Shown here: positions 44,619-60,439 of the stretch, one piece after another
How positions within the stretch are numbered: the first letter of the stretch is position 1
How the letters are laid out: each line of letters begins with the position of its first letter
Origin: Ancylobacter tetraedralis
GTDB lineage: Bacteria; Pseudomonadota; Alphaproteobacteria; Rhizobiales; Xanthobacteraceae
NCBI RefSeq assembly: GCF_014195655.1
Contig: NZ_JACICD010000007.1
Location: 62,001 to 126,000 of the forward strand
DNA: 64,000 bases
Direction: 5' to 3'
Made by a program: the position numbers and the translations under genes
The notes under the pieces: generated by a model
What the model was told of the DNA's origin: nothing
What the model saw: only the letters and a program-made list of their open reading frames with translations
Databases searched by the model: none

Positions 44619-44629
44619 GGAGAGCCATC

Positions 44630-46297: not shown

Positions 46298-46311
46298 GGC
46301 GGGGCGGGCCG

Positions 46312-46905
46312 ATGCATATCCTGCGGGCCGCCGACCATCGTGTCATGCCGTGGAAGAATGGCGGCGGCTCGACCACCGAGATCGCCGTCTTTCCCGCGAA
46401 TGCCGGCCTCGACGCCTTTCTGTGGCGGGTCAGCATGGCGGGCGTGAGCGAGGACGGACCGTTCTCGGCCTTTCCCGCGATTGATCGCTCGCTGGCCGTG
46501 CTGGCGGGCGAGGGGATCGTGCTGGAGGTCGAGGGGCAGGCGGCGGAGCGGGTGGAGCGTGAAAGCGCGCCCGCCCGCTTCCCCGGCGATGTGCGCACGC
46601 GCGCGTCGCTGGTCGGCGGGCCGATCCTCGACCTCAACGTCATGACGCGGCGCGGCCGCTATGCGCACCGCCTGACCCGGCATGTCGCCGCCGCGCGGTG
46701 TGGGATCGTGCCGGAGGGCGAGGTGGCGCTGCTGCTGTCGCGGTCGCCCGGCCTCGATGTCGGTGGCCAGGTGCTGGGCGTGAACGATGCCGCGCGGCTG
46801 ACCGGCGGGGTGGATGTCACGCCGCAGGGGCCGTCCGAATTCTTCCTCGTCGAGCTGTGGCCGGAGACGAGCGGGCCGGAGACGAGCGGGCCGGGGCGCG
46901 GATAG
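46312..46905 (+). CDS. hutD: HutD/Ves family protein
   Basis: A 197-aa bicupin-like protein: VMPWKNGGGSTTEIAVFP (residues 12-29), FLWRVSMAGVSEDGPFSAFPAIDRSLAVLAGEG, and DLNVMTRRGR near 108. HutD in pseudomonads is reported to limit hut over-expression, probably by binding a pathway intermediate; it is not a catalytic step. Ends with a duplicated ETSGP-ETSGP caused by a 15-bp tandem repeat near 46863-46892. Convergent with hutC, 20 bp away. Confidence 0.87.
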   Translation: MHILRAADHRVMPWKNGGGSTTEIAVFPANAGLDAFLWRVSMAGVSEDGPFSAFPAIDRSLAVLAGEGIVLEVEGQAAERVERESAPARFPGDVRTRASLVGGPILDLNVMTRRGRYAHRLTRHVAAARCGIVPEGEVALLLSRSPGLDVGGQVLGVNDAARLTGGVDVTPQGPSEFFLVELWPETSGPETSGPGRG

Positions 46906-46925
46906 GCGCGCCGATCGGGTGCCGC

Positions 46926-47669
46926 TCAGCCCTGCGGCGAGAAGCGGGCGACGAGATCATAGGCGTCGCCGCGGAACAACTGGCGCACATGGGTGACGGT
47001 CTCGCCCGAGCGCCAGGTGCGGCGCTCGAGGCAGAGGCAGGCCGCGCCCTTGGCCACGCCGAGCGCTTCGGCCACGCGGGCGGTGGCGGCGCGGGCGCTG
47101 ATGCGGTGCTCGGCCTCCGTCCATGGCACATGCTGCAGCAGCCAGGAGCCCGGCGCGATGGTGGCGAAATCCACCTCCGCCGCCCCCGGCACGGTGGACA
47201 AGCTGATCAGCCGCTGCTCCAGCGCGAGCGGGCGGCCATTGGCATAGTGCAGGCAGGTGAGTTCCAGAACCTCCACGCCTTCCTCGTCCGCCAGCCCGGC
47301 CGGATCGTCCTGCCGGACCGGACGACGCTTGCGGGCGATCAGCTGGTAGCGATAGATCTCGCCGCGCGCGGCAATCTCCACCGGAAGATCGGGAATGCGC
47401 AGCACGGCCGAATGAATGCGCGGCTGGGCGACGAAGGAGCCGGCCCGGCGGCGGCGCTCGATGAGACCGGCGGCAACCAGGCCGGCAATCACCTTGTTGA
47501 CCGTCATGCGGGCGCAGCCATACTGCGCCATCAATTCGTGCTCGAATGGGATGCGGTGCCCCGGCGCCCAGTCGCCCGAGAGAATCTTTGCCTCCAGATC
47601 GGTCCGGATGCGGTGGCTCAGCGTCTGGTTCGGTTCAGCCAGGGGCGAGGGGCGGAGTGTGGCAGGCAC
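46926..47669 (-). CDS. hutC: Histidine utilisation repressor HutC (GntR family)
   Basis: A 247-aa GntR/HutC-subfamily regulator: wHTH (TLSHRIRTDLEAKILSGDWAPGHRIPFEHELMAQYGCARMTVNKVIAGLVAAGLIERRRRAGSFVAQP) and a C-terminal UTRA domain (LEQRLISLSTVPGAAEVDF...TEAEHRISARAA...CLCLERRTWRSGETVTHVRQLFRGD). Represses hut genes; urocanate is the known inducer in other species. Two identical 17-bp operator candidates are in the cluster, one 70 bp upstream of this gene (autoregulation) and one between hutF and hutI. Confidence 0.93.
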   Translation of the reverse strand: MPATLRPSPLAEPNQTLSHRIRTDLEAKILSGDWAPGHRIPFEHELMAQYGCARMTVNKVIAGLVAAGLIERRRRAGSFVAQPRIHSAVLRIPDLPVEIAARGEIYRYQLIARKRRPVRQDDPAGLADEEGVEVLELTCLHYANGRPLALEQRLISLSTVPGAAEVDFATIAPGSWLLQHVPWTEAEHRISARAATARVAEALGVAKGAACLCLERRTWRSGETVTHVRQLFRGDAYDLVARFSPQG

Positions 47670-47873: not shown

Positions 47874-48653
47874 CTACTTGGCGCCGGCGGGCAGGGAAAG
47901 GGCAGGGGCGAGCCGCAGCCCGCTATAGAGCTGGGCGAAATCGAGGGCATTCTCCGCCTCGCCGTCCCGCATGGCGCCGGACAGGCGCTCCATGGTCGGG
48001 CGGAAGCGCCGCGCCGTGAACCAGATGTCCATGGCGATGCCATTGGCGGCGCGGTCCGCGTTCCCGGCCGACATCGCCTCGATGATGCGCGCATGCACCC
48101 GCGTGCCGTTGAGGAAATGCCATTGCGCGCCGGGAATCATCCGGTAGGCGGCGCCCAGATAGGGGCCGGTGCGCAGCCACAATCCCTTGATGATCTCCAG
48201 GAGCTGCGGCATGTCCGCCGCCGCGTAGATCGCGAAATGAAAGCGCCGGTTGGCGTCCAGCACCTTCTCGCTCTCGCCCCGGTCGATCGCCTCGGCCATC
48301 AGGGCGTTGAGCTGGCGCAGGTGATCGAGCAGCGCCGGGTCGGCCCGCCGCGCGGCCCAGCGGGTCGCGAGCGATTCGATGGTCATGCGGATGCGGATCA
48401 ACTCGCGGAACGAGGGCATGGTGAACTGGGGCACCGCGACGCTGCGGTTCGAGCGCTGCTCCAGCACCTTCTCGGCCACCAGGCGCTTTAGCGCCTCGCG
48501 CACCGGCATCGCGCTGGTGCCGAGCGAGGCGGCCAGCGTGCGGATGGTCAGCGTCGCCCCGGGCGCGAAATCACCCTGCGAGATCGCCTCGCGCAGCCGA
48601 AAATAGACGCGCTCCTGCAAGGTGCTGACGTCGATCGGTGTGAGTTTTTCCAT
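47874..48653 (-). CDS. FCD-domain GntR transcriptional regulator of the sugar-like catabolic regulon
   Basis: A 259-aa regulator with an N-terminal winged helix (TLQERVYFRLREAISQGDFAPGATLTIRTLAASLGTSAMPVREALKRLVAEKVLE) and an FCD domain (RIRMTIESLATRWAARR, DANRRFHFAIYAAADMPQLLEIIKGLW, HARIIEAMSAGNADRAANG). The ATG at 48653 is preferred over a TTG four codons upstream. It is divergent from the ribose-type ABC operon; the large palindrome at 48763-48793 and the related site at 57417-57429 are its likely operators. The effector is unknown. Confidence 0.85.
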   Translation of the reverse strand: MEKLTPIDVSTLQERVYFRLREAISQGDFAPGATLTIRTLAASLGTSAMPVREALKRLVAEKVLEQRSNRSVAVPQFTMPSFRELIRIRMTIESLATRWAARRADPALLDHLRQLNALMAEAIDRGESEKVLDANRRFHFAIYAAADMPQLLEIIKGLWLRTGPYLGAAYRMIPGAQWHFLNGTRVHARIIEAMSAGNADRAANGIAMDIWFTARRFRPTMERLSGAMRDGEAENALDFAQLYSGLRLAPALSLPAGAK

Positions 48654-48762
48654 ACACGCGCTCAAGACGGGGCCTGGGAACGATCATGACGCGATTGGCT
48701 CGCGGATGTCACTGATACGGAAGGCTATTCTAGCCCTTCCGGCAGCCTCTGGAAACGGAAAG

Positions 48763-48800
48763 ATTTATCTGTGATCACGCATCACAGATAAATGTTGACA
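48763..48800 (+). promoter_or_regulatory. Palindromic operator plus -35 of the ABC-dehydrogenase-BKACE operon
   Basis: A perfect inverted repeat with 13-nt arms (ATTTATCTGTGAT at 48763-48775 and complement at 48781-48793, centre CACGC), directly followed by a consensus -35 TTGACA at 48795-48800. The expected -10 region (TCTTCT near 48818) is poor. A bound GntR-type repressor would block RNA polymerase. The core ATCTGTGATCAC recurs before the SMP-30 operon. Confidence 0.75.
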
Positions 48801-49030
48801 GGTGCATCGGTGGGCGCTCTTCTGAGGGCGCTGTTGGAGGCAGTGTGGGCAGAACGCCAAAAGGCGCGGACCCGGGGACGAAATCGGTGAAAGAGCGGGC
48901 GGTCTTCGCCCTGGCCGGCGTGCGTTTCTCGCGCGATCGGACACGTGCGCTTTCACGTCTCCCCGCTGGATAAGCGCGCCTGGCGGAACGCCCCGGCCGG
49001 TCCTGAACCGGTCAACCAAGGAGGAAAAGA

Positions 49031-50158
49031 ATGAAGCGTATCCTGAAGACGACCGTCATGCTCGCCGGGCTTGCCGCGGCGGCCATCGGCATCGCCGCGC
49101 CCGCCTCGGCCAAGGAGGGCAAGTTCAAAGTCTTCCTGAGCATGAGCTATATCGGCAATGACTGGCAGGCCGAGGCGGCGAACATGCTGAAGGCCATGGC
49201 CGTCTCGCCCGGCATGGTCGACAAGATCGACCTGCAGGTGCAGGTGGCCGGACCCAACGCGCAGAAGCAGATCCAGCAGATCAACTCGATGGTGCAGGCG
49301 GGCGCCGATGCCATCGTGGTCTACCCGATCTCGCCCACCGCGCTGAACGGGGCGGTGAAGAACGCCTGTGCCAAGGGCGTTCTGGTCATCGCCTATGACT
49401 CCATCATTACCGAGCCCTGCGCCTACAACGTGCATATCGACCAGCGCGAATGGGGCACCAAGTCGGCCGAGTGGCTGGTGAAGCAGCTGGGCGGCAAGGG
49501 CCGGATCGTCATGATCAACGGCGTGCCCGGCACCACGGTCGACGCGCTGCGCATCGAGGGCGCGAAGGAGGTGTTCGCCAAGAACCCGGGCATCCAGATC
49601 GTCGGCGAGGCCAACGGCATGTGGAGCCAGGCGGTCGGCCGCACCGAGCTGTCGAAGATCCTGGCGACGCGCAGCTGGGACCAGATCGACGGCGTGTGGA
49701 TTCAGGCCGGTTGCTACACCGCCATTTCGATGCAGCTGGAGGCGGGCATCGCCGAGAAGGACCTTCGCCCCTGCGCCGGCGAGGCCTCCAATGGCGGTCG
49801 CATCCAGATGCTTCCCGTCGGCACCGAGGTCGAGGGCGCCAACGGCACCTATCGTCCGGTCGGTGCCCGCCGCTGGTCGTCGGGTTCGCAGAACTTCACC
49901 GGCGCGCTGGCGCTCAAGCTCGCGGTCAAGAAGCTGCAGGGCGGCGATATCCCCGCCCTCACCAATGTGCCGCAGAACATCGTCACCAACGACACGATCA
50001 AGCTGTGCAAGGAAGGCACCTGGAAGGAGATGTCGGAGGGTTGCAACGTGTTCCAGCCCGCCATCATCCCGAATCCCGGTTGGTTCGCCTCCATCTACTC
50101 CCCGCTGACTCCCGAAGTCGGCCTGCAGGCGGCCCTCGTCGGCCAGCCTGAGGACTGA
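49031..50158 (+). CDS. ABC transporter sugar-binding protein (ribose/CUT2 type)
   Basis: A 375-aa periplasmic binding protein: signal peptide residues 1-27 (MLAGLAAAAIGIAAPASA), then KVFLSMSYIGNDWQAEAANMLKAMA, INSMVQAGADAIVVYPISPTALNGAVKNACAKGVLVIAYDS, and GRIVMINGVPGTTVDALRIEGAKEVFAKNPGIQIV. This is the Peripla_BP_4 fold of RbsB-like proteins. It contains several cysteines in the mature part (for example C119, C133 regions and two near the C-terminus), unusual for RbsB and possibly disulfide-bonded. First gene of the regulated operon; a Shine-Dalgarno AAGGAGGAAAAG precedes the ATG. The ligand is inferred to be a sugar or sugar-like compound. Confidence 0.88.
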   Translation: MKRILKTTVMLAGLAAAAIGIAAPASAKEGKFKVFLSMSYIGNDWQAEAANMLKAMAVSPGMVDKIDLQVQVAGPNAQKQIQQINSMVQAGADAIVVYPISPTALNGAVKNACAKGVLVIAYDSIITEPCAYNVHIDQREWGTKSAEWLVKQLGGKGRIVMINGVPGTTVDALRIEGAKEVFAKNPGIQIVGEANGMWSQAVGRTELSKILATRSWDQIDGVWIQAGCYTAISMQLEAGIAEKDLRPCAGEASNGGRIQMLPVGTEVEGANGTYRPVGARRWSSGSQNFTGALALKLAVKKLQGGDIPALTNVPQNIVTNDTIKLCKEGTWKEMSEGCNVFQPAIIPNPGWFASIYSPLTPEVGLQAALVGQPED

Positions 50159-50233
50159 TCGGTCGCCGGCCCGCCATCGTGCGGCGGGCCGGCGCCACCG
50201 CTCCGAATTCGGACCGTTTGATGGGAGGAACCG

Positions 50234-51778
50234 ATGCCGCTCGAAAAGACGGCGATCGTCGTGTCCGGCGTGCGCAAGGCCTATGGGGCGACGGTCGCGC
50301 TCGATGACATGGCCGTCGAGGTTCGCACCGGCACCGTTCACGCGCTGCTGGGCGAGAATGGCGCCGGCAAGTCGACCTTCGTGAAGATGCTGTCCGGCCT
50401 CGTGACGCCGGATGCCGGCACGCTCCGGGTGTTCGGCGAGAACGTCAGCCTGAAGACACCGCTGGCCGCGCAGCGCCATGGCATCCAGACGGCGTTCCAG
50501 GAAATGACGCTGCTGCGCAACATGAGCGTGCTCGACAACATGCTGATCCCGCGCTCGCCGCTGTCGCCGCTCGGCATGGTGCGCCGGCGACAGGCGCGGC
50601 GCGACGTGGGGCGGCACTTCGAGGAACTGGGCCTCGCCGGCTTCGACCTCGACGACGAAATCGGCGATCTCGACCTCGCCATCCGCCAGAAGATCGAGAT
50701 CGCCCGCGCGGTGTTTCGTCGGCCGAGAATCCTCCTGCTCGACGAGCCGACCTCGGCGCTGTCGGGGCCGGATGTCGACTGGATGGGCGCTGTCATCCGG
50801 CGCGAGAAGGCACGCGGCACCACGGTCATCTTCATTTCGCACCGGCTGCGGGAAGTTCGCGATTTCTGCGACGACCTGACCATTCTGCGCAGCGGCAAGC
50901 ACATCGCCTCGGGCCATGTCCGCGACTTCGCGGATGAGGACGTGGTGCGCATGATTGCCGGCCGGTCGCTGATCCACTCCTTTCCCCCGCGCGGCCAGAC
51001 CCGCCATAGGCTCGGCACGGAGGTTCTCGCGGCCCATGGCGTGGGAACCACGGGCAAGCTGCGCGATGCCAGCTTCCGTCTGCGCGAAGGCGAGATTCTG
51101 GGGGTTGCCGGCCTCCAGGGCATGGGCCAGCTCGATCTGTTCCTCGCCCTGTTTGGCGAAAGGCCGGTCAGCCGCGGGCATCTCGCCGTCGATGGGCGCA
51201 AGGTGGTGTTCACCTCGCCCGGCGATGCAATCTCCGCGCGGATCGGCATCAGCCTGGTGCCGGAGGAGCGCAAGACCGAGGGCCTGTTCCTCAAGCTCAC
51301 CGGCACGCAGAACGCCACCATCCCGGTCATCGAGCGCTTCACGCGCTTCGGCATCATCGACCGCGCCCGGGAATCGGCCGCCGTGCGCGCGGTGTTCGGC
51401 CAAGTGAACGTCGCCGAACGCGCGGAATGGATGCCGGCGGAATCCTTCTCGGGTGGCAACCAGCAGAAGATCGCCATCGCCAAATGGCTGCTGAGCGAGG
51501 CGCGCGTGCTGCTGGTCTATGACCCGACGCGCGGCATCGACGTCGGCACCAAGAACGAGATCTACCAGCTGCTGCGCGCCTATGCCGAGGCGGGCGGGGC
51601 GGTGATCTTCTACTCGACCGAGATCCCCGAACTCGTTCACCTCACCGACCGGACACTGGTGTTCTACGCCGGGCGCATCGCCGCCGAACTGGCGGGCGAC
51701 CAGCTGACCGAGGAAAACATCCTGGCTGCCGCGCTTGGTTCGGCGCCTGACAGCTCCCGCGAAAAACTGGCGGTGTGA
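50234..51778 (+). CDS. ABC transporter ATP-binding protein with two nucleotide-binding domains (RbsA/CUT2 type)
   Basis: A 514-aa duplicated ATPase. Domain 1 (about 1-240) has Walker A LGENGAGKSTFVK, Walker B ILLLDEPTSAL and a switch FISHRLREV. Its signature is degenerate (DLDLAIRQKIEIARAV), as in many RbsA proteins. Domain 2 (about 255-510) has a degenerate Walker A (GLQGMGQLDLFLALFG), the strong signature SGGNQQKIAIAKWL and Walker B VLLVYDPTRGIDVG, where a tyrosine-aspartate replaces the usual leucine-aspartate pair. Energises sugar uptake together with the fused permease downstream. Confidence 0.92.
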   Translation: MPLEKTAIVVSGVRKAYGATVALDDMAVEVRTGTVHALLGENGAGKSTFVKMLSGLVTPDAGTLRVFGENVSLKTPLAAQRHGIQTAFQEMTLLRNMSVLDNMLIPRSPLSPLGMVRRRQARRDVGRHFEELGLAGFDLDDEIGDLDLAIRQKIEIARAVFRRPRILLLDEPTSALSGPDVDWMGAVIRREKARGTTVIFISHRLREVRDFCDDLTILRSGKHIASGHVRDFADEDVVRMIAGRSLIHSFPPRGQTRHRLGTEVLAAHGVGTTGKLRDASFRLREGEILGVAGLQGMGQLDLFLALFGERPVSRGHLAVDGRKVVFTSPGDAISARIGISLVPEERKTEGLFLKLTGTQNATIPVIERFTRFGIIDRARESAAVRAVFGQVNVAERAEWMPAESFSGGNQQKIAIAKWLLSEARVLLVYDPTRGIDVGTKNEIYQLLRAYAEAGGAVIFYSTEIPELVHLTDRTLVFYAGRIAAELAGDQLTEENILAAALGSAPDSSREKLAV

Positions 51779-51779
51779 G

Positions 51780-53873
51780 ATGGCCATGCAGATGACAGAG
51801 CGACTTGAACCCGCCCTGCGCGGCGGCACGGCCGCCCGCAAATGGCGCCTCGGCCGCGATCGCGGCCTGCTGACCGCCGCCGGCGTGCTGGTGGTGCTGG
51901 CGAGCATCATCCTGAGCGTCAGCGCCACCCCGCTGAGCTATTACGACATCTCGCAGATCGTCTCCAGCGGCACGCCGCTGGCGATCGCCGGAATGGGCCA
52001 GACGATCGTCATACTGAGCGGGGGATTCGACCTCTCCGCCGCGGCGGTGATCTCGCTGGTCAATGTCAGCCTCGCCGCGCTGCCGCCCGATGCCGTGACC
52101 TCGCCGGGGATGCTGCTTCTGATCGGCATCGGCATCGGCGCGCTGGTCGGCACGGTCAACGGCGCGCTCATCGCCTTCCTGCGCCTGCAACCCATCGTGG
52201 TGACGCTGGCCACCATGTTCATCCTGCAGGGTGCCACCCTGCTGGTGATGGACAAGCCCGGCGGCATGATCGACGCCTCGCTCGGGGAGTTCATGGGGTC
52301 CGAGGTCATCCCCGGCTTCCTGCCGATGACCGGCGCGCTCATCCTGGCGTGCCTTGCCCTCTGGTACTGGCTGAAGGCGACGCCCTTCGGCATCGCGCTT
52401 TATGCGGTGGGCGGCGATGCCGAGAGCGCCCGCGCGGCCGGTATCGCCACGCGCCGCGTGCGCTTCCTGACCTATGTACTGGCCGGCGGGTTCTATGGTC
52501 TGGCGGGGGTTTGCGTATCCGGCCAGACCGGGGCGGGCGATCCGCTGGTCGGCAACCCGATGCTGCTGCAGATGTTCGCCGCGGTCGTCGTGGGCGGCAC
52601 GCTGCTCGGCGGCGGCCGCGGCGGGCTGACGGGCACGGTGATCGGCGCCTTCGTGCTGGTGCTGATGGTCAACATCCTGTTGATCCTCAACGTGTCGGCC
52701 TATTACTCCACCATCGCGGAAAGCACGATCCTGCTGCTCGCCGTGCTGATGGGCGCGCTGCATCGCCGCTCGGAACTCGCGGAAAACCTGCGCCGCGCCG
52801 GCACGCGCTTCTCCGCCTGGCGCGAGGGCGTGCTCGCCGGTCAGCGGACCACCGACGTGAAGCGCCTCGCGCTGCCCCGCCGGGTGGAGGGGGTGCCTGT
52901 CTCCGGGGAGCGGCAGGGCGCGAGCCTGCTGCAGCGGCTCGGCCGCAGCCGGCCGGCCATCCTGCTGGCGCTGCCCGCCTTCATCAGCTTCGCGGTGGTG
53001 CTGCTGGCGACCGAGTTCATGCTGGGCAACACGCTGCTGAACGGCAATTACTACAACACGCTGCTCGTGCTCTCCTGCTTCCTCGCCATCCTGGCGCTGG
53101 GGCAGGGCGCCGTGATCCTCACCGGCGGGCTGGACCTCTCCCTGCCCTGGACCATCGCGCTGGCCGGCATCCTGGTCAGCGGCATGGCGGCGGGGTCGAA
53201 TGCCGAACTGATCTATGCCGTGCCCTTCGTCCTGCTGGTCGGGGCGCTGATCGGCCTGATCAACGGCACCGGCATTGTCCTGCTCGGCCTCTCCCCGATC
53301 GTCATGACGCTGGCGACCAACGGGTTCCTGCAGGGCACCGCCCTTATCTATTCCGGCGGCACGCCGGACGGCTTCGCCGCGCCGCTGCTGCGGTCCTTCA
53401 TGACGCAGCGCGTGTTCGGCGTGACGCCGGTGGTGATCTTCCTCGGGCTGTTCGTGCTCGCCGCCGTCGTGCTCATGGGGCGCACGGCGTTCGGCCGGCG
53501 GGTCTATGCCATCGGCAACAGCGCGCGCGCCGCTGCGCTTTCCGGTGTGCCGGTGAAGCGCACGGTGGTGATGGTCTACATGCTGTCGGGCCTGTGCGCC
53601 GCGCTGGTCGGCATCCTGCTGAGCGGCCTGTCGGGGCAGGCGAGCCTGGGTATGGGCGACGAATATCTGCTGCCCTCGATTGCCGCCGTCGTGGTGGGCG
53701 GCACGCTGATCACCGGCGGGCGCGGCAATTATGCCGGCATGCTGGGCGGCGTCCTGCTGCTCACGGCGCTGCAGACGCTGCTCGCCGGCACGACCTTCCC
53801 CACATCGGTGCGCTCCATCGTCTACGGCGTCGTCATTCTCACCGCCGTGATCGCGCTGCGCGAGCGCCGCTGA
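51780..53873 (+). CDS. Fused tandem ABC sugar permease (two RbsC-like domains in one chain)
   Basis: A 697-aa membrane protein made of two complete BPD_transp_2 permease domains. Domain 1 spans about residues 25-325 (GMGQTIVILSGGFDLSAAAVISL; VGGDAESARAAGIATRRVRFLTYVLAG; VVVGGTLLGGGRGGLTGT), domain 2 about 385-695 (ALGQGAVILTGGLDLSLPWTIALAG; AIGNSARAAALSGVPVKRTVVMVYMLSG; VVVGGTLITGGRGNYAGM). A roughly 60-residue charged linker joins them. CUT2 systems normally use a homodimer of one RbsC; here the two halves are fused and different. Start at ATG 51780, one base past the ATPase stop. No frameshift is seen within the linker. Confidence 0.9.
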   Translation: MAMQMTERLEPALRGGTAARKWRLGRDRGLLTAAGVLVVLASIILSVSATPLSYYDISQIVSSGTPLAIAGMGQTIVILSGGFDLSAAAVISLVNVSLAALPPDAVTSPGMLLLIGIGIGALVGTVNGALIAFLRLQPIVVTLATMFILQGATLLVMDKPGGMIDASLGEFMGSEVIPGFLPMTGALILACLALWYWLKATPFGIALYAVGGDAESARAAGIATRRVRFLTYVLAGGFYGLAGVCVSGQTGAGDPLVGNPMLLQMFAAVVVGGTLLGGGRGGLTGTVIGAFVLVLMVNILLILNVSAYYSTIAESTILLLAVLMGALHRRSELAENLRRAGTRFSAWREGVLAGQRTTDVKRLALPRRVEGVPVSGERQGASLLQRLGRSRPAILLALPAFISFAVVLLATEFMLGNTLLNGNYYNTLLVLSCFLAILALGQGAVILTGGLDLSLPWTIALAGILVSGMAAGSNAELIYAVPFVLLVGALIGLINGTGIVLLGLSPIVMTLATNGFLQGTALIYSGGTPDGFAAPLLRSFMTQRVFGVTPVVIFLGLFVLAAVVLMGRTAFGRRVYAIGNSARAAALSGVPVKRTVVMVYMLSGLCAALVGILLSGLSGQASLGMGDEYLLPSIAAVVVGGTLITGGRGNYAGMLGGVLLLTALQTLLAGTTFPTSVRSIVYGVVILTAVIALRERR

Positions 53874-53941
53874 CCTCACCCATCCGCAAGGCCAGACAAG
53901 CGCTCGCGCCGATGCAGCGCCTGCGCCAAGGGAGACGACAT

Positions 53942-54889
53942 ATGGAAGACGTTGCCATTATCGGCACCGGGTTCATCGGCAGGGCCTGGGCCATCAGCCA
54001 CGCACGGGCGGGCAATTCCGTGCGGCTGTGGGACCAGGACGCCGCCGCCACCGGCCGTGCCAAGGACTACATCGCCGGCCTGCTGCCCGATCTCCTCAAA
54101 AATGACCTGCTGAACGGGCAGGCGCCCGACGCCGTGCTGGCCCGCATCCAGCCGGTGGAGAGCCTGGAGGCGGCGGTGGCTGGCGTCAGCTACGTGCAGG
54201 AGAACACCTTCGAGCGGCTCGACGTGAAGATCGCCATCTTCCAGCGGCTGGACAGCGCGACGCCGGCGGACGCGGTGATCGCCTCCTCGACCTCGGCGCT
54301 GTTGCCCTCCGCCTTCACCGAGGGGCTGGTCGGGCGCGCCCGCTGCCTCGTCGCCCATCCCATCAACCCGCCTTATGTCATCCCGGCCGCCGAACTCGTG
54401 CCGGCCCCCTGGACCTCGCCCGAGACGGTGGAGCGGGCCGCGCGCATCCTCACGGAGATCGGGCAGAAGCCGATCGTCATGAAGCGCGAGATCGACGGCT
54501 TCGTCATGAACCGGCTGCAGGGCGCCATTCTGGAGGAGGCGTTCCGGCTGGTCGCCGATGGCTACGCTTCGGTCGAGGATGTCGATATCGGCATTCGCGA
54601 CGGACTGGCGCTGCGCTGGTCCTTCATGGGTCCGTTCGAGACCATCGACCTGAACGCGCCGGGCGGGGTGCGCGACTATGTCGAGCGCTATCAGGGCCTG
54701 TATCGCGGCCTCTTCGCCAGCATGATGCGCCGCGTGGAATGGGACGGCCCGGTCATCGAGGAAATCGCGCGCGACCGCCGCGCGGCGCTGCCGGCCGACC
54801 AGTTGCAGCAGCGACAGGAATGGCGCGACCGCCGCCTCATGGCACTGATCGCCCACAAGAACCGCGCCGACCGCGATATCGGCGCCTGA
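53942..54889 (+). CDS. 3-hydroxyacyl-CoA dehydrogenase-fold NAD-dependent 3-hydroxyacid dehydrogenase
   Basis: A 315-aa enzyme of the L-gulonate 3-dehydrogenase / L-carnitine dehydrogenase branch. NAD site IIGTGFIGRAWA (G8-x-G10-x-x-G13) with D33-like aspartate in RLWDQD; catalytic-type block CLVAHPINPPYVIPAAELVPAP (His in AHP near 137), and IDGFVMNRLQGAILEEAFRLV. These enzymes oxidise a free 3-hydroxy acid to the 3-keto acid, unlike CoA-ester dehydrogenases. It is 68 nt after the permease and directly before a BKACE gene, which would cleave the resulting beta-keto acid. The substrate is inferred to be a sugar-derived 3-hydroxy acid; carnitine is the main alternative. Confidence 0.85.
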   Translation: MEDVAIIGTGFIGRAWAISHARAGNSVRLWDQDAAATGRAKDYIAGLLPDLLKNDLLNGQAPDAVLARIQPVESLEAAVAGVSYVQENTFERLDVKIAIFQRLDSATPADAVIASSTSALLPSAFTEGLVGRARCLVAHPINPPYVIPAAELVPAPWTSPETVERAARILTEIGQKPIVMKREIDGFVMNRLQGAILEEAFRLVADGYASVEDVDIGIRDGLALRWSFMGPFETIDLNAPGGVRDYVERYQGLYRGLFASMMRRVEWDGPVIEEIARDRRAALPADQLQQRQEWRDRRLMALIAHKNRADRDIGA

Positions 54890-54918
54890 GAACGATACCC
54901 AGCACAAGGAAACATGCC

Positions 54919-55857
54919 ATGAGCAAGCCGGGACCGCGCAAGGTCATCATCACCTGCGCCGTGACGGGCGCCATCCACACGCCCTCCATGTCGCCCTACC
55001 TGCCGATCACGCCGCAACAGATCATCGACGACGCGCTCGGCGCCGCCGAGGCTGGAGCGGCCATTCTCCACCTGCATGCCCGCAACCCCGAGACCGGCAA
55101 GCCCGACCAGACGGTCGAGGGTTTCATGCGCTTCCTGCCGCAGATCAAGCAGGCGACCAACGCCGCGCTGAACCTGACCAGCGGCGGCAGCCCCTATATG
55201 CGGGTGGAAGAGCGCGTGCTGCCGGCGCAGATGCTCAAGCCGGAAGTTGCCTCGCTGAACATGGGCTCCATCAATTTCGGCCTGTTCCACCTGCTCGACA
55301 AGTACAAGGAATTCAAGTTCGACTGGGAGCGCGAGCATCTGGAGGCGACGCGGGACCTTGTTTTCCGCAACTCGTTCAAAGACATCGAGTTCATTCTTCG
55401 CACCTGCTACGAGAACAATACGCGCTTCGAGTTCGAGTGCTACGACATCGCCCATCTCTACAATCTCGCGCATTTCGCCGAGCGGGGCCTCGTCAAGCCG
55501 CCCTTCTTCGTGCAGTCGGTATTCGGCATTCTTGGCGGCATCGGCACCCATCCCGAGGACGTGCAGCACATGAAGCGCACGGCGGACCGGCTGTTCGGCG
55601 ACGCCTATCGCTGGTCGGTGCTCGGCGCCGGCGCGAGCCAGCTGCGCATCGCGGCGCAAGCGGCGGCGCTGGGTGGCAATGTGCGCGTGGGGCTTGAGGA
55701 TTCGCTGTGGGCCGGCCGCGGCAAGCTGGCGACCTCCAGCGCCGATCAGGTGCGGCTGGTGCGCCAGATGATCGAGGGGCTGGGGCTGGAGATCGCGACG
55801 CCGGACGAGGCGCGGCAGATCCTCGAACTGAAGGGTCCGGGCGCGGTCAATTTCTGA
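54919..55857 (+). CDS. Beta-keto acid cleavage enzyme (BKACE, DUF849 family)
   Basis: A 312-aa TIM-barrel zinc enzyme. VIITCAVTGAIHTPSMSPYLPITPQQI near residues 9-35, the zinc pair H51 and H53 in LHLHARNPETG, NLTSGGSPYMRVEER, FEFECYDIAHLYNLAHF, and VQSVFGILGGIG near 195. BKACE enzymes react a 3-keto acid with acetyl-CoA to give acetoacetate and the shortened acyl-CoA. Known substrates include 3-keto-5-aminohexanoate, dehydrocarnitine and, as I recall from published work, 2-deoxy-3-keto-ribonate. Last gene of the ABC operon; it pairs with the dehydrogenase just upstream. Start ATG 54919 with AAGGAAACATGCC upstream. Confidence 0.9.
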   Translation: MSKPGPRKVIITCAVTGAIHTPSMSPYLPITPQQIIDDALGAAEAGAAILHLHARNPETGKPDQTVEGFMRFLPQIKQATNAALNLTSGGSPYMRVEERVLPAQMLKPEVASLNMGSINFGLFHLLDKYKEFKFDWEREHLEATRDLVFRNSFKDIEFILRTCYENNTRFEFECYDIAHLYNLAHFAERGLVKPPFFVQSVFGILGGIGTHPEDVQHMKRTADRLFGDAYRWSVLGAGASQLRIAAQAAALGGNVRVGLEDSLWAGRGKLATSSADQVRLVRQMIEGLGLEIATPDEARQILELKGPGAVNF

Positions 55858-55881
55858 TCGGTGTCCTTTCGGCACGAAAAA

Positions 55882-55906
55882 CCCGCCGGGCATCCGTCCC
55901 GGCGGG
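55882..55906 (-). terminator. Terminator of the GFA-family gene
   Basis: Nine-bp stem CCCGCCGGG/CCCGGCGGG with a 7-nt loop; on the minus strand it is followed by TTTTTC. It sits between convergent genes and may also help to end the BKACE transcript. Confidence 0.75.
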
Positions 55907-55992
55907 CCGTGTCTGCAAGTCTCGCCGCACGGTTGCGGGCGCGGGCGACCCGCGCGCCGCTCCGTTCTTGAGACGGCTCGCCTCGAGGCGGC

Positions 55993-56400
55993 TCATTCCT
56001 CGAAGCGGCTGGTCTCGAATCGGCTCGTGGAGTCGCGATCGCGATCGTAATGCCGGGCCAGCGGAAAGGGCGGCAGCCAGGATTCGCGCCGGACGACCCA
56101 GCTCTCATAGGTCGGCCGCAGCTGGTCGGGCGCGTCGAGCGCGCCGAGATGCACCTCGATCTCGTCGCCGTGACGCGCGAAGACCGGTGAGCCGCAGGTG
56201 GGACAGAAGAAGCGCCCGGCATAGTCGCGGGTTTCGCCTTCTACCGTCACCGCGTCCTGCGGGAAGATGGCGGCGGCATAGAACAGCGCACCGTGATGCT
56301 TGCGGCAATCGAGGCAATGGCAGATGCCGACCCGGTAGGGCCGGCCCGTCGCCACCATCCGCACCTTGCCGCACAGGCAGCCGCCCGTGACGTGTTCCAT
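55993..56400 (-). CDS. GFA/CENP-V domain zinc protein
   Basis: A 135-aa protein with the GFA cysteine pattern: C8 and C10 in GGCLCGKV, C27, C29 and C32 in GICHCLDCRKHHG, and C66 and C69 in FFCPTCGS, which build two zinc sites. The founding member was named glutathione-dependent formaldehyde-activating enzyme, but most relatives have no proven activity. The C-terminus ends in a repetitive STSRFETSRFEE, from imperfect 15-bp repeats around 55975-56030. Start ATG 56400. A separate transcript from the neighbouring catabolic genes is likely. Confidence 0.85.
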   Translation of the reverse strand: MEHVTGGCLCGKVRMVATGRPYRVGICHCLDCRKHHGALFYAAAIFPQDAVTVEGETRDYAGRFFCPTCGSPVFARHGDEIEVHLGALDAPDQLRPTYESWVVRRESWLPPFPLARHYDRDRDSTSRFETSRFEE

Positions 56401-56551
56401 GCCCCGCCTCCTCCCGCTCCGGAACGACGAGGCGCCATCTTGGCCAGATCGCGCGCCGCTGGCCAGAGCCCATGCCGCGAGGAGGGGTAGGGACGGTCCC
56501 CGTGGGAGACCGTCCGCAGCGCCGGGAGGGTTTGGCTGCCGTGCGACCCGG

Positions 56552-57301
56552 TCAGACGGGGCAATAGGCGAAGGGGCGGATCGGCGAGCCGGAACCCTCA
56601 AAGATGTTGAGCGGCGCGGCGACGAACAGGAAGCGGGGCGACACCTGTTCGAGGTTGCGCAGCATTTCGATGATCAGGATGTCATGCGGCAACCAGCTCT
56701 TCATGTGGCCGGGATTGTTCTGCGGCACGCCGTCGATGATCGCCGTCTCGGCGGCGACGGTGTCCGTCGCGACCGCTTTCACCTTGCGCTCGCGGAAGAA
56801 CTCGCAGGCGTCTTCCGACATGCCGGGCGCGTTGAGCACATACCATTGCGCGCGGGCATCCGTGCGCCAGTAGCGCTGCATCCAGCCGTAGTTGACGACG
56901 GCGATTTCGCCCTCGCCGACCGCGATGCCGGTGCGCTCCTCGACCCCGCGCAGGTCCTCGGCGGTGATGAGCTGGCCCGGCTTCAGGTCGCGGTCGCTGA
57001 AATCATAGAGCACCGCGGTGGCGATCAGGTGATCGGGCGAGAAGGTGTCGATGGTGCGGTCCATGCGATCGGGGAGCATGTGGGCGGGCGCGTCGACATG
57101 CGCGCCGGTGTGCTCGGCCATCATGATCGCCTGGCAATAATAGCCATCATGCTCATGGGTGACGGCCTTGTCGATCGTCAGATGCGGGTGGGTCGGCCAG
57201 CGCGGAATGCCGCGTTCGAGAAGAGGGGCCAGATCGACCACCCGCATCCGCTTCAGGGCCGACAGAAGCTGGTCGATAGTCGGCTTATCTACCGCGTTCA
57301 A
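56552..57301 (-). CDS. Cyclase-family (kynurenine formamidase-like) metal hydrolase
   Basis: A 249-aa protein of the cyclase superfamily with the metal site H-x-G-x-H-x-D-x-P-x-H: HTGAHVDAPAH, giving H64, H68, D70 and H74. The start is set to TTG at 57301 because GGGAGGAAGAA lies directly upstream and no ATG matches; the longer frame lacks homology. Relatives hydrolyse N-formylkynurenine, isatin or lactone-like compounds. Divergent from the SMP-30 operon and sharing its operator region, so it probably works on the same substrate class. The exact reaction is unknown. Confidence 0.83.
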   Translation of the reverse strand: MNAVDKPTIDQLLSALKRMRVVDLAPLLERGIPRWPTHPHLTIDKAVTHEHDGYYCQAIMMAEHTGAHVDAPAHMLPDRMDRTIDTFSPDHLIATAVLYDFSDRDLKPGQLITAEDLRGVEERTGIAVGEGEIAVVNYGWMQRYWRTDARAQWYVLNAPGMSEDACEFFRERKVKAVATDTVAAETAIIDGVPQNNPGHMKSWLPHDILIIEMLRNLEQVSPRFLFVAAPLNIFEGSGSPIRPFAYCPV

Positions 57302-57416
57302 TTCTTCCTCCCAGGTGTTTGTGGCGTGCCCTTTGGGCGGGCCGCTCCGGCGGCTCTTCGGAGCCGCAGCGCGAGAGAAGCATGGGGCCGGCGCGAGCGT
57401 CAATGATCAATGATTG

Positions 57417-57439
57417 ATCTGTGATCACATATCTTGACA
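57417..57439 (+). promoter_or_regulatory. GntR-type operator plus -35 of the SMP-30 operon
   Basis: ATCTGTGATCAC at 57417-57428, containing the 10-bp palindrome TGTGATCACA (57420-57429), followed 4 bp later by TTGACA (57434-57439). Core sequence, orientation and nearness to TTGACA match the site at 48763-48800 upstream of the ABC operon. It lies between the divergent cyclase gene and the SMP-30 gene and could control both. Confidence 0.7.
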
Positions 57440-57513
57440 GCCTCCGGGCTTTTGCCGAAGGTGGTGGCAACGCGGGGAAAAACCCGTGCAGTGACGTTCT
57501 GGGAGGAACGACG

Positions 57514-58416
57514 ATGGTGGATATCCGGCTTCTGGTGGATTCGAAGAACCACCTGGGCGAAGGCCCGCTCTGGGATGTCGAGGAGCAGCGCCTCTACTGG
57601 ATCGACAGTTCCGCATCCGAGATCTGGAGCGCCCGCGAGGATGGCTCCGACGTGAAACTCTACTACGTGCCGACCCATATCGGCTCCATGGCCCTGCGCG
57701 AGAAGGGTGGCGCGGTTCTGGCGCTGGCCAACGGCTTCAGCCTGTATGATTTCCGCAGCCAGCGCCTGACCCATATCGGCGACCCGGAAGCGGACGAGCC
57801 GGAGAACCGGCTCAATGACGGCAAGGTGGACCGTCGCGGCCGTTTTCTTGCCGGCTACATGTCCTATGACCATGATCGCTTCGACGCCAATCGCGGCCAG
57901 CGCCCCGTGCGCAATTCCGCGCTCTACCGGCTCGACCCGGACCTGTCGATCACCCGGCTGGAAAGCGGCATCAAATGCTCGAACGGGCCGTGCTGGAGCC
58001 CGGACGACCGCACCTTCTACTTCTGCGATTCCTACGACGACATGATGTATGCCTATGACTACGACATCGAGACGGGCAGCCTCTCCAACCGGCGCGACTT
58101 CGCCTCGAACCGGCAATATCCCGGCACGTTCGACGGCTCGACGGTCGATGCGGAAGGCTACATCTGGAACGCCCATGTCTTCGGCGGCCGCATCATCCGC
58201 TACGCGCCCGATGGCAGCATCGACCGCGAGATCGAGTTTCCGGTGCGCAACCTCACCTCCGTGATGTTCGGCGGCAAGGATCTCGACATCCTCTACGTCA
58301 CCTCGATGGGCCGGCCGATCAAGGGCGTGCCGCAGCGCGAGGCGCATGCCGGCGGGGTGTTCGCAGTGCATGGCCTCGGCGTGAAGGGCCTGCCCGAGCC
58401 GCGTTTCGGCGGCTGA
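57514..58416 (+). CDS. SMP-30/gluconolactonase-family lactonase
   Basis: A 300-aa six-bladed beta-propeller metal-dependent lactonase. Metal ligands expected in this family are visible: E16 in LGEGPLW, an asparagine in RLNDGKVD near 100, an asparagine in SNGPCWSPDD near 152 and an aspartate in FDGSTVDAEGYIWNAH near 204. Start ATG 57514 with GGGAGGAACGACG upstream. Members open sugar lactones (glucono-, arabino-, xylono-lactone). Together with the ribose-type transporter this points to an oxidised sugar as intermediate. Confidence 0.9.
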   Translation: MVDIRLLVDSKNHLGEGPLWDVEEQRLYWIDSSASEIWSAREDGSDVKLYYVPTHIGSMALREKGGAVLALANGFSLYDFRSQRLTHIGDPEADEPENRLNDGKVDRRGRFLAGYMSYDHDRFDANRGQRPVRNSALYRLDPDLSITRLESGIKCSNGPCWSPDDRTFYFCDSYDDMMYAYDYDIETGSLSNRRDFASNRQYPGTFDGSTVDAEGYIWNAHVFGGRIIRYAPDGSIDREIEFPVRNLTSVMFGGKDLDILYVTSMGRPIKGVPQREAHAGGVFAVHGLGVKGLPEPRFGG

Positions 58417-58569
58417 TGCCGGCAGGAGCGCCGCCCCGCCGCGCACGGCGCTCCTCATCGATCCCTACGATCCCAAGCGCCTCACGGTGCCGCCGGACGC
58501 AGCCGGCGTTCCCATCGTCGCGGGCGTGATCGGTTTCCCCCGCGCGCTGGCCCGGTTTCGAGGAAAAAC

Positions 58570-59607
58570 ATGTCGCATGTGCGGATCCGCACGGAAGGTC
58601 TGGCCGGGCGCATCACGCTGGCGCGGCCTGAGGCCCTGAATGCGCTGACCCATGAAATGTGCCTCGCCATCGCGGCGGCGCTGGAGGCCTGGCGCGCGGA
58701 TGATGCCGTTCGCCTCGTGATCATCGACGGGCAGGGCGAGCGGGCCTTCTGCGCCGGCGGTGATGTGGTGCGCATCTGCCGTGCCGCCGCGATGGGCGAT
58801 CCGGGTGTGGGTCATGCTTTCTGGCGCGACGAATACCGGATGAATGTCGCGCTGGCGGAATATCCCAAGCCGGTCGTCGCCTTCCTGCAGGGCATCGTGC
58901 TCGGCGGCGGGGTCGGCATCGGCTGCCATGTGTCCCATCGCATCGTCGGCGAGACGACACGGCTGGCGATGCCGGAAGTCGGCATCGGCCTCATTCCCGA
59001 TGTCGGCGGCACGCGGCTCTTGTCGCGCGCGCCGCATCGGCTGGGGGAATATCTCGGGCTCACCGGTCTGCGGATGGGGCCGGGCGATGCGATCCGCACC
59101 GGCTTTGCCGATTGTCTGGTGCCGGAGCGGGCATGGGAGGCGCTCGCCGCCGTGCTGGCGGCCACCGGCGACGTCGGGCTGATCGCCGCCGCCGCCGTGC
59201 CGGCTCTCGACAGCCCGCTCCATGAGGCGGGGGCGGAGATCGAGCAGGCGTTTGCCGGCCCGGACATACCCGCGATCCTGGCCGCGCTGCGGGCGAGCGA
59301 CGCGCGCTGGGCACGCGAAGGAGCGGAGGCGATGGGGCGCAACTCGCCGCTGGCCATGGCGTGCACCTTGGTGCTGCTGCGCAGCCTGCCGGCCATGGCG
59401 GACCTGCGTGTCGCGCTGACGCGGGAGTTCCGCGTCACCTGGCGATCCGTGCTGCCGGACCTCACCGACTTCGTCGAGGGCGTGCGCGCCCAGATCATCG
59501 ACAAGGACCGCCAGCCGAAATGGCGCCATGCCACGCCGGCCGACGTTCCCGCCATCGAGGTCGCGGCGCTGATCGCCAGCCTCGGCCACGATGAACTTCT
59601 GCTGTGA
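58570..59607 (+). CDS. Enoyl-CoA hydratase/isomerase family protein, 3-hydroxyisobutyryl-CoA hydrolase-like
   Basis: A 345-aa crotonase-fold protein. Oxyanion-hole blocks AFCAGGDVVRI (60-70) and GIVLGGGVGIG (about 108-118); the block MPEVGIGLIPDVGGTRLLSR with its glutamate is closest to 3-hydroxyisobutyryl-CoA hydrolases (IGLFPDVGG type), as is the length, which is about 80 residues longer than plain hydratases. It would hydrolyse a 3-hydroxyacyl- or 2,3-dihydroxyacyl-CoA. In the proposed pathway it releases glycerate (or similar) from the acyl-CoA made by BKACE. Preceded by GAGGAAAAAC. Confidence 0.85.
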   Translation: MSHVRIRTEGLAGRITLARPEALNALTHEMCLAIAAALEAWRADDAVRLVIIDGQGERAFCAGGDVVRICRAAAMGDPGVGHAFWRDEYRMNVALAEYPKPVVAFLQGIVLGGGVGIGCHVSHRIVGETTRLAMPEVGIGLIPDVGGTRLLSRAPHRLGEYLGLTGLRMGPGDAIRTGFADCLVPERAWEALAAVLAATGDVGLIAAAAVPALDSPLHEAGAEIEQAFAGPDIPAILAALRASDARWAREGAEAMGRNSPLAMACTLVLLRSLPAMADLRVALTREFRVTWRSVLPDLTDFVEGVRAQIIDKDRQPKWRHATPADVPAIEVAALIASLGHDELLL

Positions 59608-59671
59608 ACGAACAAGTGCCGGCTGCCGGGGGTTCCCGGCGCGCAGGCGAATAAACAAGGGAGTGGGCGAC

Positions 59672-60439
59672 ATGGATCTAGGACTGACGGGCGCCAGAGT
59701 CATCGTGACGGCGGGCGCGGCCGGTATCGGACGGGCCATCATTGACGGGTTTCTGAGGGAAGGTGCCCGGGTCGCGACCTGTGACATCGACGAGGCGGCG
59801 CTGGCCACCCTCCCGCCCGGCGTGCATGCCGAGATGGTTGACGTCGCCGACGAGGCCCGCTTCACCGCCTTCATCGACGGGGCCATCGAGGCGCTCGGCG
59901 GCCTGGACTGCCTCGTCAACAATGCGGGCATTGCCGGGCCGACCGGGCGGGTGGAGGATATTCATCCCGCCGACTGGCGCCGCACCATCGACATCGTGCT
60001 CACCAGCCAGTTCCTGGCCGTCTCCCGCTCGGTCGCGGCGCTGCGCGAAAGCGCCAACCCATCCATCGCCAACCTGTCCTCGGTGGCCGGCCGGCTCGGC
60101 TTCGGCATGCGCACCCCCTATGCCGCCGCCAAATGGGGTGTGGTGGGACTGACCCAATCGCTGGCCATCGAACTCGGCGACTATGGAATCCGCGTCAACG
60201 CCATCATGCCCGGGCTCGTGGCCGGTGACCGGCAGCGGCGCGTGCTGGAGGCCAAGGCACAGCAGAAGGGCCTGTCCTTCGGCGAGGTTGAGGCCCAGGC
60301 CTTCCAGTACACCTCGATCAAGGATTACGTGCCGCCGGAGGCCATCGCCGACCAGATCCTGTTCCTCGCCTCCGAGCATGGCCGGCTCATTTCCGGCCAG
60401 TCGCTCTCCGTCTGCGGCGGCATCCGCATGCTGGCGTGA
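59672..60439 (+). CDS. Short-chain dehydrogenase/reductase
   Basis: A 255-aa classical SDR: cofactor motif TAGAAGIG (T13 to G20), D38/D40 in ATCDIDE suggesting NAD preference, NNAG near 83, catalytic S136/S137, Y150 and K154 (YAAAKWG), C-terminal LISGQSLSVCGGIRML. Oxidises a hydroxyl group of a sugar or polyol in this context. It may be the sugar C1 dehydrogenase that makes the lactone for the SMP-30 enzyme, or an alternative 3-dehydrogenase. Start ATG 59672; 64 bp after the hydrolase gene in the same operon. Confidence 0.9.
   Translation: MDLGLTGARVIVTAGAAGIGRAIIDGFLREGARVATCDIDEAALATLPPGVHAEMVDVADEARFTAFIDGAIEALGGLDCLVNNAGIAGPTGRVEDIHPADWRRTIDIVLTSQFLAVSRSVAALRESANPSIANLSSVAGRLGFGMRTPYAAAKWGVVGLTQSLAIELGDYGIRVNAIMPGLVAGDRQRRVLEAKAQQKGLSFGEVEAQAFQYTSIKDYVPPEAIADQILFLASEHGRLISGQSLSVCGGIRMLA

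Follow-up and report, generated by a model that had tools for sequence, protein, structure and literature searches.

A GntR-linked, two-promoter locus of Ancylobacter tetraedralis as a probable CUT2-importer variant of oxidative 2-deoxyaldonate catabolism via a beta-keto acid cleavage enzyme

We analysed a catabolic locus of Ancylobacter tetraedralis in a 64-kb stretch of its genome (hereafter the window; position 1 is its first letter), which belongs to a 5.03-Mb assembly of 29 contigs. The locus comprises two operons (Table 1). The first (49031-55857) codes for the sugar-binding protein (SBP), ATPase and fused permease of a CUT2-type ABC importer, followed by a lambda-crystallin-type 3-hydroxyacid dehydrogenase (HAD) and a beta-keto acid cleavage enzyme (BKACE), with the gene for a GntR/FCD regulator diverging from it. 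The second (57514-60439) codes for an SMP-30 family lactonase, an ECH_2 hydrolase and an SDR dehydrogenase, with a gene for a cyclase-family metal hydrolase in the divergent orientation. The ORF coordinates and family names given in an earlier, sequence-only reading of this DNA were all borne out by the ORF list and by profile searches; the small GFA-domain gene between the operons, absent from that reading, is common only to the window and a near relative (L025, from the same genome as L112 below) among the clustered loci. We propose that the locus probably serves the oxidative catabolism of 2-deoxyaldonates in the manner of the deoxyribonate route, as a variant that has a CUT2 importer and proceeds via BKACE, the genes, their linkage, the operator and the kinship of the proteins being the observations from which every catalytic step and the substrate are predicted.

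Table 1. Genes and operator sites of the locus, with coordinates in the window
Feature	Position	Strand	Profile matches and remarks
GntR/FCD regulator	47874..48665	-	PF07729 82.6 bits, PF00392 65.4 bits; divergent from importer operon
Operator 1, 31-bp inverted repeat ATTTATCTGTGATCACGCATCACAGATAAAT	48763..48793		GntR/importer gap, immediately 5' of a TTGACA
CUT2-type sugar-binding protein (SBP)	49031..50158	+	PF13407 (Peripla_BP_4) 166.8 bits
CUT2 ATPase, sugar type, two ABC domains	50234..51778	+	PF00005, two stretches
Fused permease, two BPD_transp_2 domains	51735..53873	+	PF02653, two stretches; ORF, true start somewhat later
Lambda-crystallin-type 3-hydroxyacid dehydrogenase (HAD)	53942..54889	+	NF004783 482 bits, cut-off 347
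BKACE	54919..55857	+	PF05853 347.5 bits; NF053538 534.8 bits, cut-off 430
GFA-domain small gene	55993..56400	-	Between the operons
Cyclase-family metal hydrolase	56552..57403	-	PF04199 108.2 bits; true start probably inside the ORF
Operator 2 ATCTGTGATCACA	57417..57429		Between cyclase and SMP-30 genes, 5' of a TTGACA
SMP-30 family lactonase	57514..58416	+	PF08450 275.2 bits
ECH_2 / 3-hydroxyisobutyryl-CoA-hydrolase-like thioesterase	58570..59607	+	PF16113 354.8 bits; NF004127 371.2 bits, cut-off 274
SDR dehydrogenase	59672..60439	+	NCBIfam SDR models, none above its own cut-off among those listed

The upstream regions of both operons have ATCTGTGATCAC in common. The exact 13-mer ATCTGTGATCACR (48767-48779 at operator 1) is confined to the two window promoters across the whole assembly; with one mismatch allowed the assembly holds six matches, one of which is operator 2 read in reverse, and the window holds three against 0.06 expected, a number reached in none of 100 shuffles. 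As this pattern was picked post hoc from the sites themselves, its conservation serves as the independent test. The 8-letter core GTGATCAC, which is the palindrome proposed for the GntR protein of the Pseudomonas simiae deoxyribonate cluster (PMC6365646; this and the other papers are cited for the accessible parts of their text), lies at 48771-48778 and 57421-57428 and nowhere else in the window; since 21 of 100 shuffles also give at least two copies, the weight rests on the 13-mer and on conservation. Indeed, TGATCA is present in 68 of the 73 GntR/SBP intergenic regions of relatives, versus 25 of 254 gaps between other genes; windows placed at random in these loci contain it in 360 of 3515 cases. 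Moreover, TGTGATCAC or its reverse complement recurs in a Tabrizicola locus (L113), in the GntR/importer promoter and just 5' of the cyclase gene, and in a Rhizobiaceae metagenome-assembled genome (L114), in the GntR/importer and cyclase/SMP-30 promoters. Among 14 loci with branched-chain-type importers, CTGTGATCAC precedes the GntR gene in 11 (L033 to L058) and TGATCA occurs in one from Paracoccus denitrificans (L220), with neither site found in L108 and L211. These sites suggest that the locus is probably one GntR-controlled regulon with two promoters, GntR being the predicted regulator of both operons. Because operator 2 is common to the cyclase and SMP-30 promoters, the divergent cyclase gene is a member of the regulon.

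The genes of both operons are linked well beyond Ancylobacter. SBP matches at E ≤ 1e-70 are found in 22 of the 397 genomes of the order, its own included, and the best 80 of 212 relatives in named genomes were retained, giving 79 loci that come mainly from Alphaproteobacteria, with some from Betaproteobacteria and one from a metagenome-assembled genome titled Gammaproteobacteria. Fifty-five of these are assessable (the stretches of 13 end too early and 11 are without a full transporter); 18 of the 79 are Mesorhizobium by title, so that the counts are not independent, and a diverged locus (L105) and one on a short contig (L106) enter none of them. Genes for the SDR, HAD and BKACE adjoin the importer in 48 of the 55 assessable loci, and 47 of these 48 also have one or two SMP-30 genes. 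Since relatives carry the same genes as one cluster, as in the single-cluster form of A. polymorphus (L146), the two operons of the window are a split form of the common single cluster; the layout in Ancylobacter amanitiformis (L112) is identical to that of the window. The co-regulation of the operons, which the sequence-only reading had assumed, is thus supported by the common operator and by the one-operon relatives; that reading was to be abandoned were the operons never found together in homologous clusters, and they are found together.

In the pathway that we favor, the CUT2 importer would take up a 2-deoxy sugar or its lactone; the SMP-30 protein, and probably also the cyclase-family hydrolase, would open the 2-deoxyaldonolactone; the SDR and/or the HAD would oxidise the 2-deoxyaldonate at its C3 hydroxyl group; BKACE would use acetyl-CoA to cleave the resulting 3-keto acid, yielding acetoacetate along with an acyl-CoA, which for a pentonate would be glyceryl-CoA, and the ECH_2 hydrolase would release glycerate. 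We favor this type of pathway because of the one-operon relatives, the lactonase kinship and the operator, and also because the HAD is near lambda-crystallin and the SMP-30 protein near regucalcin. CUT2 importers usually carry sugars, and the AlphaFold2 model of the SBP (mean pLDDT 87.7) has a sugar-binder fold; its identity to solved structures is at most 24% among the 50 matches listed, for which reason we rejected the fold as a guide to the ligand. An oxidative 2-deoxysugar route ending in BKACE had already been put forward in the sequence-only reading: the type of pathway is well supported by the relatives, the lactonase kinship and the operator, but its assignment of the steps is not, and the linkage to product-side genes (glycerate kinase, hydrolase and CoA-transferase) is seen in two related Rhizobiaceae plasmids only.

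The usual operon SMP-30 protein of the CUT2-BKACE relatives shares 61-70% identity with the lactonase encoded on a Klebsiella plasmid (L217), and we call a copy standard if its identity to the latter is at least 60%, a line that we set in a visible gap reaching down to 55% among operon copies. The co-occurrence counts that follow leave out 12 loci whose genome stretch duplicates another. In all 28 loci that have a second SMP-30 copy, a standard copy is present too. The window protein, with regucalcin as its nearest solved relative (4gn7, 158.8 bits), forms with seven others one group (SH-aLRT 100) that joins these second copies and not the standard copy; in the quick tree, the resulting 37-row set joins at a support of 100, at a point where the program flags long branches meeting. 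The cyclase and the SBP occur together in four loci from three lineages (the window, L112, L113 and L114), none of which has a standard SMP-30 gene. The cyclase orthologs in L113 and L114 are 82-83% identical and adjoin the same importer type; at E ≤ 1e-60 the cyclase is present in one of the 177 genomes of the class, namely its own. Because no locus with the cyclase has a standard SMP-30, the cyclase-family hydrolase is probably a second lactonase that substitutes for it. Several further arrangements of these families were seen. In L115 and L116, a window-type SBP, a window-type SMP-30 and a GntR gene adjoin a complete standard operon, arranged as if widening its substrate range. An Acinetobacter record (L234) has an SMP-30 protein 61% identical to the Klebsiella lactonase, with no BKACE detected within its 14.9 kb. 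In Tabrizicola rongguiensis (L113 and L170), two copies of a cyclase and amidohydrolase-like gene pair are separated by about 29 kb and resemble each other in the portions displayed, one copy lying behind a second SBP gene. A longer, different cyclase-family protein, judged by reading and alignment, is encoded beside BKACE in L028, L030, L040, L045, L046, L047 and L055, all of the same bacterial family.

The cyclase also brings in a serious rival, which we nevertheless consider improbable: the catabolism of phloroglucinol-type cyclic 1,3-diketones, wherein the SDR would reduce the ring, the cyclase would hydrolyse it by a retro-Claisen reaction, the HAD would yield 3,5-dioxohexanoate and BKACE would turn this into acetoacetyl-CoA and acetoacetate. 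These four enzyme families also make up a cluster of Clostridium scatologenes, carriers are reported in Mesorhizobium loti and among marine alphaproteobacteria, and isatin hydrolase is the closest characterised relative of both the window cyclase (65.9 bits, its nearest solved relative) and DPGC (PMC10470551). Furthermore, the window BKACE passes NF053538, a model named for 3,5-dioxohexanoate; we rejected this name as proof of the substrate, since a close relative, BKACE15, takes four beta-keto acids (PMC11961710), and the model is not diagnostic. The linkage likewise speaks against this rival: the window cyclase query matches three of the 79 SBP loci, whereas the SDR, HAD and BKACE are kept together in the large majority of the assessable ones, and of the seven plasmid records with cyclase relatives (53-60% identity), the two examined, from Rhizobium and Agrobacterium, have them in CUT2 sugar-importer operons. 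The sugar importer and the SMP-30 gene are tightly linked, and the acyl-CoA hydrolase would be idle in such a pathway. In addition, the columns that we take to be equivalent to Trp20 and Tyr22 of DPGC (PMC10470551) read W-P-T in the window cyclase and W-P-Y in that of another locus, L063, in our alignment. In L063, the W-P-Y cyclase gene lies beside genes for a HAD (35% identity) and a BKACE (62%), and this may be a phloroglucinol-type cluster.

Two dehydrogenases are available for the oxidation at C3. The nearest solved relative of the HAD is lambda-crystallin (3ado, 226.9 bits; the next non-crystallin scores 101.6 bits), described as L-gulonate 3-dehydrogenase, a sugar-acid 3-dehydrogenase (PMC12435205), and the SDR of the P. 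simiae route is reported to be the deoxyribonate 3-dehydrogenase (PMC6365646), so either enzyme could make the 3-keto acid. The sequence-only reading had divided the work differently, with an imported aldose being oxidised at C1 by the SDR to the lactone, which the SMP-30 protein opens for the HAD alone to make the 3-keto acid. The usual sugar cargo of CUT2 importers and the proximity of the HAD to a sugar-acid 3-dehydrogenase would fit that order. Nevertheless, we regard it as rather unlikely, as the SDR, BKACE and SMP-30 genes are found without a detected HAD gene in L147 and L176 (both assessable), L155 (a stretch too short to be assessed) and L104 (outside the count), a HAD elsewhere in those four genomes remaining possible, and as branched-chain-importer clusters combine the SDR, HAD and BKACE with no SMP-30 detected within the fetched stretches. 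Together with the published role of the P. simiae SDR (PMC6365646), these loci leave the claim that the SDR makes the lactone without support: an SDR confined to lactone formation would suit neither set of clusters, and the retention of the SDR in the four loci argues against the HAD as the sole maker of the 3-keto acid. Because of this retention, and of the SDR-HAD clusters without a detected SMP-30, the SDR is more likely the basic 2-deoxyaldonate 3-dehydrogenase than a lactone maker. In the FastTree phylogeny, the window SDR joins that of the P. denitrificans BKACE15 locus with a local support of 100, within a group of 23 rows that come mostly from branched-chain-importer loci (support 97) and apart from 69 CUT2 SDRs; the branch dividing the two main groups is weak (79) and the program flags some long branches. 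Because its SDR groups apart from the CUT2 SDRs, the window system looks like a hybrid of the CUT2 and branched-chain-importer types. HAD-type enzymes take L-3-hydroxy acids, while SDRs often take D-3-hydroxy acids. The HAD is possibly an extra enzyme that serves the opposite configuration at C3, i.e., the other C3 epimer; a preference for S substrates is described for TfD, which is related to the HAD (PMC10470551).

The window BKACE matches PF05853 over the whole domain (positions 1-274 of 274), keeps the HLHAR and VGLED motifs and scores 444.8 bits against BKACE15 (8rio); contigs C4 and C13 of the same genome hold three more BKACE matches, of which one is weak (76.9 bits). The combination of BKACE with a 3HCDH dehydrogenase also occurs in carnitine pathways, and a pathway for carnitine-like amino-keto acids was the alternative named in the sequence-only reading. 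We hold this to be highly improbable, given that two carnitine dehydrogenase models with cut-offs of 592 and 414 give the HAD just 195.6 and 174.8 bits, and that BKACE has an Ile in the motif TGAIH, at a position that would correspond to Glu14 in the amino-substrate enzyme. A role for that Glu14 has been described (PMC10470551). Another hydroxy-acid lactone, such as the delta-lactone of 3,5-dihydroxyhexanoate, would explain the presence of two dehydrogenases, with the SDR acting at C5 and the HAD at C3 ahead of BKACE; indeed, BKACE15, which has a related SDR-HAD locus, acts on 3,5-dioxo- and 5-hydroxy-3-ketohexanoate (PMC11961710). The sugar-type importer, the kinship of the lactonase to that of the deoxyribonate cluster and the glycerate kinase linked in two relatives make such a substrate a poor prospect.

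On the product side, the conversion of glyceryl-CoA to glycerate was left without a gene in the work of Price and colleagues (PMC6365646), and GapMind lists glyceryl-CoA hydrolase as a gap in deoxyribonate oxidation (PMC9007349). The window ECH_2 gene, which lies between the SMP-30 and SDR genes under operator 2, is a candidate for this missing hydrolase; a second full-length ECH_2 match is found elsewhere in the same genome. In an Agrobacterium plasmid (L110), the operon is followed by genes for a chemoreceptor, a glycerate kinase and an enoyl-CoA hydratase/isomerase-family protein. In a Rhizobium plasmid (L111), it is followed by genes for a glycerate kinase, an enoyl-CoA hydratase/isomerase-family protein, subunits of a CoA-transferase and a racemase set of the LarA type, while its upstream side has genes with the annotations acetoacetate decarboxylase and 3-hydroxybutyrate dehydrogenase. 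These neighbours fit glyceryl-CoA, glycerate and acetoacetate as products. The LarA, LarC, LarE-like and LarB genes of L111 (16404-20441), between the BKACE operon and the glycerate kinase gene, are possibly a nickel-dependent glycerate racemase system, which hints at L-glycerate in that strain.

Several observations weigh against the deoxyribonate-type reading. With respect to regulation, AkgR of Rhodobacter has the same GTGATCAC motif (PMC6365646), for which reason the motif is not proof by itself, and TGATCA is missing from five of the 73 GntR/SBP gaps, including that of a congener of the window strain, A. polymorphus (L146). As to the enzymes, BKACE is missing from five of the 55 assessable SBP loci, and the window SMP-30 protein, just 50% identical to the Klebsiella lactonase, falls outside the deoxyribonolactonase group, so its lactone may differ from deoxyribonolactone. 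Linkage on the product side is rare. The window ECH_2 query matches just two of the 79 SBP loci, the near relative L112 and L170; the CoA-transferase query matches one (L155), and no locus is matched by the queries for glycerate kinase, LarA, the chemoreceptor or the Rhizobiaceae hydrolase. We accordingly dropped glycerate kinase as a general neighbour, two kinase queries having failed to match any of these loci and the linkage being confined to L110 and L111. The A. tetraedralis genome does contain a match to PF13660, the type-II glycerate kinase domain and the one kinase family searched, but this single match is unlinked, on another contig (C5:351648-352331). By alignment, the window ECH_2 protein is 37-40% identical to the L110 and L111 proteins, at which level orthology was dropped, and 52% identical to the Tabrizicola copy (L170); the latter was set aside as support since its gene adjoins acyl-CoA-dehydrogenase- and 3-hydroxyisobutyrate-dehydrogenase-like genes (by reading), giving it a valine-pathway look. 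Two separate recruitments of the hydrolase are likelier than one ancestral gene.

A more specific version for the sub-type of the window, as represented in three lineages, would be a deoxyribonate route that has been remodelled to handle a different or broader range of 2-deoxyaldonolactones. Here, the cyclase would have taken the place of the deoxyribonolactonase by non-orthologous displacement, the SDR and HAD would be stereo-complementary, with one BKACE serving both C3 epimers of 2-deoxypentonates, and the ECH_2 protein would be the glyceryl-CoA hydrolase. We deem this full version rather unlikely, the more so given how few relatives have a linked ECH_2 gene. If the broader proposal of 2-deoxyaldonate catabolism holds, it would extend the use of these compounds via an ABC importer to many Alphaproteobacteria and some Betaproteobacteria; it also suggests that cyclase-family enzymes can act in a lactonase-like role and, with the regulon and the separate ECH_2-like genes behind the same operon in L110 and L111, provides named candidates for the glyceryl-CoA hydrolase. 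In the literature on deoxyribonate (since 2019) and glyceryl-CoA, judged by titles and abstract openings and with subscription journals thinly covered, we found no description of a CUT2 variant. At lower coordinates in the window, ORFs resembling urocanase, HutD and HutC (43931-47669) form a histidine-utilisation-like group, judged from the translations alone.

The proposed system may be set beside described or recorded clusters. By its published description, the P. simiae deoxyribonate pathway has, like the window, a GntR gene with the GTGATCAC operator, an SDR 3-dehydrogenase, a BKACE and a lactonase, with glyceryl-CoA and acetoacetate as the proposed products (PMC6365646). Its two MFS genes are replaced in the window by the CUT2 ABC importer, and its molybdenum dehydrogenase for deoxyribose is encoded elsewhere in its genome (PMC6365646). 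Beyond this set, the window has the lambda-crystallin-type HAD, the cyclase-family hydrolase, the ECH_2 hydrolase and an SMP-30 protein of another group; the lactonase-family, SDR and BKACE genes are co-located, sharing a single operator type in the window and adjoining the same importer in most of the relatives that could be assessed. An identity of 70% is given for the lactonases of K. michiganensis and P. simiae (PMC6365646), and the gene order of the Klebsiella plasmid L217 (CoA-synthetase, CoA-transferase, dehydrogenase, thiolase, MFS, lactonase, MFS, glycerate kinase) equals the order that the locus numbers imply for the deoxyribonate cluster of K. michiganensis (PMC6365646); in L217, from Klebsiella pneumoniae, an IS3-like element lies between the thiolase and MFS genes. 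The C. scatologenes phloroglucinol cluster resembles the window in its SDR, cyclase, 3-hydroxyacyl-CoA-dehydrogenase-like and BKACE families, but has a major-facilitator-type transporter and, in the accessible parts of its description, no mention of a lactonase (PMC10470551), and the Trp20/Tyr22 pair of its DPGC is not kept in the window cyclase. Lastly, the P. denitrificans BKACE15 locus (L220), on a plasmid, shares with the window the SDR (70% identity), HAD (44%) and BKACE (63%), along with TGATCA sites 5' of its GntR gene. In contrast to the window, it has a branched-chain-type ABC importer and an added HisD-like gene, and its 20.7-kb stretch yielded no SMP-30 match; its SDR and GntR genes diverge from those for the importer, HAD and BKACE, the HisD-like gene coming last. 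The physiological role of BKACE15, an enzyme used in a synthetic CO2-reduction cycle, has been called unknown (PMC11961710); the L220 gene set is a possible physiological context for it, as is also suggested by its likeness to the regulon of the window.

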